Below are positions 18,935 through 32,874 of a stretch of 51,080 nucleotides of DNA, piece by piece. The translations under genes were made by a program, and so were the position numbers. The notes under the pieces are model-generated. The model did no database searches. It was given only the letters and a program-made list of their open reading frames with translations, and had not been told where the DNA came from. The stretch covers positions 1 through 51,080 of the forward strand of contig NZ_JACJPY010000029.1 of the NCBI RefSeq assembly GCF_014696345.1, written 5' to 3'. The first letter of the stretch is position 1. Every line of letters starts with the position of its first letter. This DNA comes from Pseudanabaena cinerea FACHB-1277. Lineage in GTDB: Bacteria; Cyanobacteriota; Cyanobacteriia; Pseudanabaenales; Pseudanabaenaceae.

Positions 18935-20293
18935 ATGTCGCTACCGATTGTTGCCGTTGTCGGTCGTCCCAATGTGGGCAAATCCACCCTTGTAAACCGT
19001 CTATCAGGTGAGCAATATGCGATCGTCTATGATGAACCGGGTGTGACCCGCGATCGCGTCTATCGAGAATGCTTTTGGGGAGCGCACGAATTTCAAGTGG
19101 TGGATACTGGCGGTCTCGTTTTTGATGATGAAACCGAATTTTTGCCGATGATTCGCGAACAGGCAGAGATTGCCATTCGGGAATCGGCGGCGGTTATTTT
19201 TGTTGTCGATGGATTAGCAGGGATTACCGATGCGGATGAGCAACTGGCGGGATGGCTAAGGCGACAAAATATTCCTGTACTTTTGGCGGTAAATAAATGT
19301 GAAGGTTCTAAGTATGGTCTTTCCCTTGCTGCCGAGTTTTGGAGTCTAGGCTTAGGTGAGCCGCTCGCTCTCTCAGGGATACATGGCAATGGTACTGGTG
19401 AATTATTAGATGAATTAGTTAAGCATTTGCCGCCACCCGAAGAAGTTTCATCGGATAGCGATGAAACGAAGGTTGCGATTATTGGTCGCCCCAATGTGGG
19501 CAAATCCAGTCTCCTAAATGCCTTTATCGGTGAAAATCGCAGCATCGTTAGCCCAATTTCGGGAACGACAAGGGATGCGATCGATATGTCGGTGGAACGT
19601 GATGGTAAAAAATATCGCTTGATCGATACGGCTGGTGTGCGCCGTAAAAAGCATATTGAGTATGGTATTGAATTTTTTAGTATCAACCGTGCTTTTAAGG
19701 CGATCGGGCGATCGGATGTGGTGCTGTTGGTGATCGATGCCCTTGATGGAGTCACCGATCAGGATCAAAAACTGGCGGGGCGTATCAACGATGAGGGTAA
19801 AGCCTGCGTGATTGTGGTCAACAAATGGGATGCGGTGGAAAAAGATTCTTACACTATCTATGACTACACTGCCGAGGTCAAAAGCCGCCTCATGTTTGTG
19901 GAGTATGCGCCAATTATCTTTGTCAGTGCGCTGACGGGGCAGAGAGTTACGCAAATTCTCGATCGCGTTGATATTGCCGCCGAGCAGCATCGCCGCCGCG
20001 TTCCTACAGCCATCTTAAATGAGGCACTCAATGAAGCGGTCACATGGCACGCCCCACCCACCAGTCGCGGCGGCAAGCAGGGGAAGGTTTATTACTGCAC
20101 CCAAATTTCCGATCAACCGCCAACAATTATTCTGTTTGTCAATGATCCCCATCGCTTCAACGACAATTACAAGCGCTATATCGAAAATCAATTCCGTAAG
20201 ACCCTTGGTTTTGAGGGCACGCCCCTGAGATTTATCTGGCGCGGCAAAAAAGATCGCGAGGTCGAAAAGTCCAAAAATTCAGCCTTAAGATAG
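18935..20293 (+). CDS. der: Ribosome-assembly GTPase Der (EngA)
   Basis: Der is an essential GTPase with two tandem G domains that helps mature the 50S ribosomal subunit. The first domain has [16 protein letters not shown] and NKCEG; the second has [20 protein letters not shown] and NKWDAV. A C-terminal KH-like domain contains [21 protein letters not shown], the usual Der ending. Length 452 is typical of cyanobacteria. It is driven by a clear promoter and ends at a hairpin. Several long frames on the opposite strand are composition shadows. Confidence 0.98.
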
Positions 20294-20295
20294 AA

Positions 20296-20331
20296 CCTAG
20301 AAAGCATTGCTTTCCCGCGCTTTCTGGTTTT
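20296..20331 (+). terminator. Probable der terminator
   Basis: CCTAGAAAGC and GCTTTCTGG can pair (one bulged base) around a 13-base loop, followed by TTTT. Confidence 0.6.
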
Positions 20332-20443
20332 CATCAAATTAAAAAAGCTACACCATTTTCTATTTGATATGATTAGACAAGAATGATTCTGTGGCGTGCG
20401 TGACTACCGATAATGTGTCTTGATCGATAATCGTTTTTAAGGA

Positions 20444-20563
20444 GTCTTCGCAGTCTTCGCCGCAGTAAACCAGACTAGCATCTGGGAACTTTAAGTTAGG
20501 CGAAGCGCTTCGGCTCCACCTGGTTTTACCGGGTCAAACAACTGAGGTGAGACGGCGTTGCGG
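20444..20563 (+). ncRNA. Putative structured RNA or leader of the downstream transporter gene
   Basis: The sequence folds by eye into a closed multi-branch structure. A closing stem CCGCA (20460-20464) pairs with TGCGG (20559-20563). Inside are the hairpin CCAGA/TCTGG (20470-20485), a small AACT/AGTT hairpin (20487-20497), the palindrome CGAAGCGCTTCG (20501-20512), and ACCTGG/CCGGGT with a five-base loop (20518-20534). A strong hairpin follows at 20575. I do not recognise any known family: it lacks tmRNA, SRP, RNase P, cobalamin, TPP or SAM landmarks. It could be a trans-acting RNA such as 6S, or a riboswitch-like leader for the folate/biopterin-type transporter that begins 56 bases past the terminator. 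Confidence 0.4.
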
Positions 20564-20574
20564 ATGATTTCCCA

Positions 20575-20614
20575 CAGAAAGGTGGCTTACAAAGTAAGTC
20601 ACCTTTCTGCGTTT
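20575..20614 (+). terminator. Strong hairpin between the RNA and the transporter gene
   Basis: A stem of about 16 pairs: CAGAAAGGTGGCTTAC, loop aaa, GTAAGTCACCTTTCTG, then cgTTTT. Placed in front of a gene it may be an attenuator, or simply the end of the upstream RNA. Confidence 0.75.
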
Positions 20615-20669
20615 TGAGGCAAAAGCTATACAGATGCTAATATTAATAAACATTCAAGTTTCTTAATAT

Positions 20670-22043
20670 TTGAGTAATCCTATTGTGCTAATCCAATCAG
20701 AGTGGCTCAAAAGCCTGCGAGGGCGCTCGTTTGACTTAGAGTTAGGGGCGATCGCTATTATTTATTTTGTGCAGGGGGCGATGACCCTCTCACAGCTTGC
20801 CGTTAGCTTTTTCCTTAAGGATGACCTTGGACTAAGCCCAACGGAAGTTGCCTCTATGGTGGGAATTACGATGCTGCCTTGGACAATCAAGCCACTGTAC
20901 GGATTAGTCTCTGATGGATTTCCTATATTTGGCTATCGTCGCCGCCCCTATTTGCTAATTTCTAGTGTTTTAGGAGTAGCCGCTTGGATCAGCATGGGGA
21001 CTTGGGTAAATACACCATTTTGGGCGATCGCCATGATTGCGATCGGGTCACTATCTCTTGCCTGTTCTGACGCGATTACCGATGCTCTGATCGTTCAACG
21101 CGCCAGACTGGAGCCAGAGGGCGATGCAGGATCTTTGCAGTCCTTTAGTTGGATCGCCTCATCCGTTGGCGGCATTATTGCCGCCTATCTCAGTGGCTAC
21201 TTACTAGAACATTTTGGCTCAAGATTCGTATTTGAATTCACCGCATTTCTGCCCCTATTGGTCGGCATTTCTGCCTTTGCGATCGCCGATCCGCCCATGT
21301 CAAATATCTTCATAGCTGAGGCGATCGATGGCTCCCCCAATTTAGCGCAATTGTCACGCAACTCCCAAATGTGGTTATCCCTAAAGCGCAACTTTGGACA
21401 ACTTCGCGAAGCCTTTACCAGTAAATCAATTTGGCTTCCAGCAGCCTTTCTCTTTTGCTGGCAAGCTACCCCCAGCGCCGACACCGCCTTTTTTTACTTC
21501 ACCACCAACGAGCTAGATTTTAATCCTGAGTTCTTAGGGACAATTCGCTTCTTTGGTAGTTGGGCTGGACTTTTAGGGGTTTGGCTATTTCAAAGATTTT
21601 TTAAGGGCGTATCCACCCGCAACATCTTTTTCTGGACAACAATTATTTCTACTTTGTTGGGTTTAACTAGTCTGCTATTGGTGACACACCTTAACCGCGA
21701 ACTTGGCATTGGCGATCGCTGGTTTAGTCTTGGCGACAACCTGATCCTGACCGTAGCAGGGCGCATAGCCTTCATGCCCGTACTAGTATTAGCCGCCAGA
21801 TTATGCCCAGAGGGCATCGAAGCCACCCTATTTGCATTGCTAATGTCGGTGTTAAATATTTCCGCCCTCTGCTCATTTCAACTGGGCGCAGGCTTAACCT
21901 ATATACTCGGAGTCACAGAGACAAACTTCGATAACCTCTGGATCTTGGTACTAATCGCTAACCTGTCCAGCCTATTACCCTTACCATTGCTGCATTGGCT
22001 GCCTGACGAAACAGCAAAAATTGCAAAAAAGACTGTGCCGTAA
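20670..22043 (+). CDS. Folate-biopterin (BT1) family MFS transporter
   Basis: A 457-residue polytopic membrane protein of the BT1/FBT group of the major facilitator superfamily. Family hallmarks are YFVQGAMTLSQLAVSFFLKDDLGLSP, PWTIKPLYGLVSDGFPIFGYRRRPY and ACSDAITDALIVQRAR; about twelve helices are evident. Cyanobacterial and plastid relatives move folates, although some family members have other substrates. The frame opens with a TTG at 20670. A GTG at 20685 is an equal candidate, as neither has a good ribosome site. It is preceded by the structured RNA and hairpin above, the only hint of regulation. No folate gene is adjacent. Confidence 0.88.
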   Translation: MSNPIVLIQSEWLKSLRGRSFDLELGAIAIIYFVQGAMTLSQLAVSFFLKDDLGLSPTEVASMVGITMLPWTIKPLYGLVSDGFPIFGYRRRPYLLISSVLGVAAWISMGTWVNTPFWAIAMIAIGSLSLACSDAITDALIVQRARLEPEGDAGSLQSFSWIASSVGGIIAAYLSGYLLEHFGSRFVFEFTAFLPLLVGISAFAIADPPMSNIFIAEAIDGSPNLAQLSRNSQMWLSLKRNFGQLREAFTSKSIWLPAAFLFCWQATPSADTAFFYFTTNELDFNPEFLGTIRFFGSWAGLLGVWLFQRFFKGVSTRNIFFWTTIISTLLGLTSLLLVTHLNRELGIGDRWFSLGDNLILTVAGRIAFMPVLVLAARLCPEGIEATLFALLMSVLNISALCSFQLGAGLTYILGVTETNFDNLWILVLIANLSSLLPLPLLHWLPDETAKIAKKTVP

Positions 22044-23530: not shown

Positions 23531-23703
23531 TACTGTAGATTATGTCACCATTCTTCAAGCTTTTGCCAAAATTTAACTAGAGTTAATGATTAATCACCTG
23601 AGATCAACATTGAGATCAAAATTGCCTCTTGGACAAGATTGACATTGTGCAATCTTTACATCAGACTTAACTAAATCTACTTTGACTAAGATAATTACCG
23701 ACT

Positions 23704-23785
23704 GCGGAACTGGCGGAATTGGTAGACGCGCATGTTTCAGGTACATGTGTTGAAAGACTTGGGGGTTCAAGTCCCCCGTTCCGCA
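23704..23785 (+). tRNA. tRNA-Leu (anticodon CAG)
   Basis: Acceptor stem GCGGAAC (23704-23710) pairs with GTTCCGC (23778-23784), discriminator A at 23785. The anticodon stem is CATGT/ACATG with loop TTCAGGT, giving anticodon CAG, which reads CUG. A long variable arm (class II tRNA) and a T arm GGGGGTTCAAGTCCCCC are present. The 3' CCA is not encoded. Confidence 0.97.
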
Positions 23786-23843
23786 TTGCATTAGTACTAC
23801 CATGTTTTGCGAATTTACAGCAATTACTGATCGAACGAGCCAC

Positions 23844-32841: not shown

Positions 32842-32874
32842 AAGGATGGGCGGCGCGAAGCGCCGCCCATCCTT
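32842..32874. repeat. Perfect palindromic hairpin, GCGCGAAGCGC core
   Basis: AAGGATGGGCGGCGC, loop gaa, and its 15-base exact complement. It belongs to the family of intergenic hairpins in this window sharing a GCGC-A/G-AAGCGC core, and lies right beside the Uma2 remnant. The remaining ~110 bases up to 32987 show nothing supported. Confidence 0.75.

Follow-up and report, generated by a model that had tools for sequence, protein, structure and literature searches.

In the analyzed window (the whole stretch of 51,080 nucleotides), the interval between der and a gene for a BT1-family transporter carries a structured RNA on the same strand. The first-pass annotation described it as a set of nested stems with a 16-pair hairpin downstream, matching no known family, and considered a riboswitch-attenuator of the transporter, a discrete small RNA, or a partial repeat insertion. 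The features of this region are as follows:

18935–20293, + strand: der (EngA GTPase), the upstream neighbor; Pfam MMR_HSR1 (two stretches) and EngA KH-like domain
20292–20331, + strand: hairpin that overlaps the der stop codon and continues past it, a possible der terminator (z −3.81; 0 of 200 shuffles)
20368–20373, + strand: TATGAT, resembling a −10 element, a possible 6S promoter; visual alignment places it opposite TATAAT/TATACT/TATAAA-like letters that are similarly spaced from the gene in 24 genus loci
20383–20570, + strand: 6S RNA gene (ssaA/ssrS); RF00013 match, covariation, and 40 of 50 projected pairs formed in the window
20388–20401, + strand: 5′ strand of the remaining closing stem, pairing with 20552–20564 (13 of 17 closing-helix pairs)
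20470–20485, + strand: 6S apical hairpin (CCAGA/TCTGG); pairing and both-side changes
20470–20474/20481–20485, AACTTTAAGTT at 20487, palindrome at 20501–20512, and ACCTGG..CCGGGT from 20518, + strand: internal hairpins of the first-pass annotation; letters present
20499–20512, + strand: 3′ side of an internal 6S helix, self-complementary in the window (CGAAGCGCTTCG), pairing with 20455–20461; six Rfam pairs and one that we added form
20552–20564, + strand: 3′ strand of the closing stem; pairing in the window and covariation
20575–20609, + strand: 16-pair hairpin followed by TTTT, a probable 6S terminator (z −5.71; 0 of 200 shuffles)
20670–22043, + strand: BT1-family transporter gene, the downstream neighbor; Pfam PF03092 (BT1), 440.8 bits

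The Rfam scan of the window yielded a full-length covariance-model match to RF00013 (6S/SsrS RNA) at 20383–20570 on the + strand, scoring 60.4 bits (curated cut-off, 46.4 bits; E value, 1.4e-9) and covering model positions 1–187 of 187. It was the sole Rfam match at the gathering threshold across the 51-kb window. A focused permissive scan of 20250–20720 (E up to 1) returned this match again, plus three that scored under 20 bits and fell well short of their own cut-offs; none of the four belonged to a riboswitch family. The element is thus explained by 6S RNA, a family that the first-pass annotation itself had named for testing, and the statement that it matched no family is superseded; its start had been placed at 20400, 17 bases inside the model match. 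ARAGORN called a tRNA-Leu (CAG) at window positions 23703–23786, which was unconfirmed by the Rfam gathering scan, where no tRNA was listed.

The family search found this one RF00013 match and none besides in the genome of the window. A second 6S copy was also rejected at the level of DNA similarity, since the other four matches were only 15–18 bases long with E >1. RF00013 matches were present in 57 of the 58 genomes searched, 55 of them above the cut-off. The genus set comprised 26 genomes including that of the window; one of these (G015, 76% complete) had no 6S match, and another (G024, 6% contamination) had a second, sub-cut-off match on another contig. The latter (L055, positions 541–703 of contig C12, 46.1 bits) lies on a 15-kb contig without the genus context and possibly comes from a contaminant. 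The core of the window's gene (20391–20562) is 89.5%–97.7% identical to those of 24 genus relatives. Of the 32 genomes outside the genus, whose scores range from 35.0 to 106.6 bits, 28 score higher than the 60.4 bits of the window's gene.

Covariation of the 6S RNA fold

The fold was evaluated on an alignment of 57 sequences (55 distinct), made without structure, onto which the Rfam fold was projected from the window. It takes 57 of the 58 matches, omitting one sub-cut-off match (L060, genome G056, 35.0 bits), while two others (L055 and L058) were kept though sub-cut-off. Both-side changes were found at 30 of 50 pairs, and 81.4% of cells were paired versus 39.8%–46.8% in slid controls. Cells with both-side changes numbered 267 versus 46–97, the covariation score was 0.284 versus at most 0.106, and none of 500 shuffles reached any of the five measures. 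The 17-pair closing helix was 90.7% paired with both-side changes at 10 of its 17 pairs, and the apical hairpin 20470–20485 was paired in 99.3% of cells with such changes at four of five pairs. Two of the seven projected helices were weakly paired across the alignment, namely helix 5 (54.5% of cells) and helix 3 (65.5%). The RNA therefore folds as the single long interrupted hairpin that defines the family, with a closing stem, a central bubble, and an apical stem-loop supported by covariation. The covariation check on relatives that the first-pass annotation had called for thus came out in favor of the 6S fold, and the RNA is a complete 6S RNA by sequence and structure.

Folding energy contributes little to this assignment. 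Taken by itself, the body 20383–20570 has an ordinary energy (z −1.34; equaled or bettered by 18 of 200 shuffles), and its minimum-energy fold was set aside as uninformative; addition of the downstream hairpin gives z −3.49. The significance of the main structure comes from the covariance-model match and covariation, not from energy.

The complementary stretches listed in the first-pass annotation are present, including the closing stem 20460–20464 (CCGCA) with 20559–20563 (TGCGG) and the internal hairpins, and its fold shares the apical hairpin with the 6S fold, the one element for which it was retained. Its closing stem, on the other hand, did not hold up: it is 83.7% paired across the alignment but lacks covariation support: two of its five pairs show both-side changes, each in a single sequence, and one pair fails in 27 of the 54 sequences that have letters there. 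The 3′ arm of this stem, TGCGG, is part of the 6S closing helix. Taken whole, the first-pass fold also beat its slid controls (79.1% of cells paired versus 23.9%–49.3%), its best-supported helix being the shared apical hairpin.

The palindrome CGAAGCGCTTCG at 20501–20512, in which the first-pass annotation had seen a possible repeat insertion, occurs exactly once in the 4.77-Mb genome, no further copies being found. All 25 genus sequences, that of the window among them, have letters in these columns, related but varying. All seven pairs with 20455–20461 form in 4 of these 25 sequences (the window, L033, L035, and L039), the other 21 breaking one or two, while the four-pair local hairpin drawn in the first-pass annotation is complete in three (the window, L033, and L039). 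The arm is therefore only partly conserved under either pairing, and it is a variable part of 6S RNA rather than a repeat. Hairpins with GGCGCGAAGCGCC cores lie around window positions 32855 and 38383, and similar ones follow der in some relatives; they may be the "repeat core" that was meant. The octamer GCGATCGC, known as HIP1, is very frequent, with 87 copies in the 51-kb window.

Gene ends and genomic position

The retained body starts with TCTGTGG (20388) and ends with GCGGA (20564). Beyond these limits the window's sequence diverges from that of the genus, and as a result the outer four closing-stem pairs (20384–20387/20565–20568) do not form; they are among the ten projected pairs unformed in the window. 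All four form in 23 of 24 genus relatives, the remaining one (L054) lacking a single pair. Among the 57 aligned rows, all four are broken elsewhere only in L055, the sub-cut-off sequence from the genome with 6% contamination, and other cyanobacterial rows miss up to three of the same pairs.

Upstream, a consensus scan found no full promoter for the 6S gene. When the 60 nt upstream were aligned with the upstream sequences of the 24 relatives, 1 of 200 shuffles attained the mean score, in a test where only the window's sequence was shuffled, the relatives are not independent, and any −10 element would raise the score; this is suggestive only of the promoter having moved along with the gene. The corresponding score of the 70 nt downstream was reached by 143 of 200 shuffles. 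The 16-pair hairpin 20575–20590/20594–20609 with its TTTT, correctly described in the first-pass annotation, stands about 60 bases ahead of the transporter TTG at 20670. It was not listed by the terminator pattern scan, which asks for five T in eight where only four T follow here, and no other copy of it was found in the genome at E <0.4. This hairpin probably ends 6S transcription rather than acting as a riboswitch switch.

The order DUF554 – 6S – tRNA-Met is typical of the genus, being found at all 24 other Pseudanabaena loci. In the main loci of these relatives, tRNA-Met (CAT, by ARAGORN) lies 67–158 nt past the 6S match, and DUF554 (Pfam; tblastn) lies upstream, ending within 255 nt in 23 of them and 1,378 nt away in L037. 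BT1 was absent from the fetched flanks (about 1.5 kb) of 6S at all 24. At 32 6S loci from other genera, no match to der, BT1, or DUF554 at E up to 1e-10 was found in flanks of about 1.5 kb, or less at contig ends, and der was not found in the fetched flanks of 24 genus BT1 loci, some of them shortened by contig ends (e.g., L079). Across all these loci, the order der – 6S – BT1 was met in the window only. On visual inspection, the tRNA-Met gene that follows 6S in the 24 genus loci (L032–L054 and L056; L055 excluded) seems to be served by a separate conserved promoter, TTGCAA..TATATTA-like. Several genus loci have no obvious terminator hairpin between 6S and tRNA-Met, and 6S may therefore be co-transcribed with tRNA-Met in such relatives.

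The genome of the window, a draft assembly of 179 contigs and 4.77 Mb with an estimated completeness of 99.99%, has a tRNA-Met-like stretch without 6S beside it (contig C91, nearer end 9 kb away) and DUF554 without adjoining 6S (contig C131, nearer end 3.8 kb away). The best BT1 identity among the closest available relatives is 87%. From this comparison of gene orders, the 6S gene appears to have been relocated in this lineage from the DUF554 – tRNA-Met site to the der – BT1 interval, and the changed place is real in the assembly, although an assembly error around the gene is possible. The BT1 transporter is probably a bystander. One tentative scenario, which we regard as possible but on balance doubtful, is that the lone 6S gene moved as a unit of about 180–200 bp and the old copy was lost, the RNA remaining functional with a shorter closing stem and a terminator gained after the move. 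The sequence ATGATT, repeated directly at the two ends of the retained body (20383–20388 and 20564–20569), would fit insertion with target duplication, if only weakly, because ATGATT also occurs at 20369 and is found 35 times on the window's + strand.

Alternative readings and comparison with known 6S RNAs

A cis-acting riboswitch-attenuator in the BT1 leader, where ligand binding to the nested stems would control the 16-pair terminator, is suggested by the same-strand position upstream of the transporter, the terminator-like hairpin 20575–20609 before the start codon, and the excess of the first-pass structure as a whole over slid controls. Yet the region is a complete 6S RNA, no riboswitch family was matched in 20250–20720 at E up to 1, and the closing stem proposed for such a switch is almost without compensatory change. 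The leader position is not conserved either, as the 24 genus relatives have DUF554 and tRNA-Met, and no BT1, in the fetched flanks of the RNA, and the 3′ flank of the window is no closer to theirs than shuffles are. We therefore rejected this reading, which is now extremely improbable, while the discrete small RNA proposed alongside it is borne out, on the sequence evidence, as 6S RNA. An insertion of a palindromic repeat into the intergenic region draws on the resemblance of CGAAGCGCTTCG to the GGCGCGAAGCGCC cores that other hairpins of the window contain. It was likewise rejected and has a practically negligible probability, given that the palindrome is single-copy and its columns are a variable 6S arm throughout the genus.

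That the gene is a degenerate, non-functional copy left after relocation, with the intact gene absent from the assembly, is very unlikely, though slightly less so. The broken outer four pairs, shared among the aligned rows only with L055, the new location, and the draft state of the assembly in 179 contigs speak for it. Against it stand the high identity of the core to genus relatives, a match above the curated cut-off, and the outer pairs (up to three) that other cyanobacterial rows also miss; in addition, this is the only 6S copy found in an assembly estimated to be nearly complete, and the tRNA-Met site lies well inside its contig without 6S. The best explanation of the whole is almost certainly that the locus holds the only 6S RNA gene found in this genome, relocated, with its outer four pairs lost and the transporter as a bystander. 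The family is already known, and this is an ordinary 6S gene whose location is the one unusual point. One candidate "unknown riboswitch" is thereby struck off, a routine Rfam scan being enough to detect a standard 6S gene. The locus is of limited interest, as a modest case of a small RNA gene, present in one copy, that moves without its neighbors. A limited search of parts of the open-licence literature found no report of relocation of a cyanobacterial 6S gene, or of 6S RNA together with Pseudanabaena.

Transcription of the 6S gene, now between der and BT1 instead of DUF554 and tRNA-Met and without the outermost four closing-stem pairs, would start from a promoter with the −10 element TATGAT (20368–20373) and end at the hairpin 20575–20609. 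By analogy with the family, the long interrupted hairpin would imitate an open promoter, and under nutrient limitation the RNA would bind RNA polymerase together with its housekeeping sigma factor, which is SigA in cyanobacteria. On recovery, the polymerase would copy the 6S template into a short product RNA and then be released. In PMC5721685, E. coli 6S RNA is described as an open-promoter mimic that binds polymerase during starvation and is released by product RNA synthesis, and in vitro work cited there indicates the same basic mechanism in cyanobacteria. Deletion of ssaA in Synechocystis is reported to delay recovery from nitrogen starvation and to slow SigA recruitment (PMC5721685).

The RNA resembles the RF00013 family in its full-length match above the cut-off and in its closing stem, internal bubble, upper helix, apical hairpin, and covariation, and differs from it in the unformed outermost four closing-stem pairs; in most rows outside this genus, the internal helix arm around 20500–20512 is shorter by about 5 nt. 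It shares family, phylum, and length range with cyanobacterial 6Sa/SsaA and Yfr7 of marine strains, which are discussed as probable cyanobacterial 6S members in PMC1242208; the Synechocystis ssaA locus (1,886,879–1,887,066) is 188 nt long (PMC5721685). The neighbors are different: 6Sa is reported to lie directly downstream of purK (PMC1242208), and the Synechocystis 6S gene is shown surrounded by slr1287, slr1288, and sll1166 (PMC5721685), whereas der and BT1 flank the gene in the window. Other Pseudanabaena 6S genes are the closest counterparts, with the core identity given above, but all 24 of them have DUF554 and tRNA-Met as neighbors and 23 form the four outer pairs, in contrast to the der and BT1 neighbors and the broken pairs of the window's gene.
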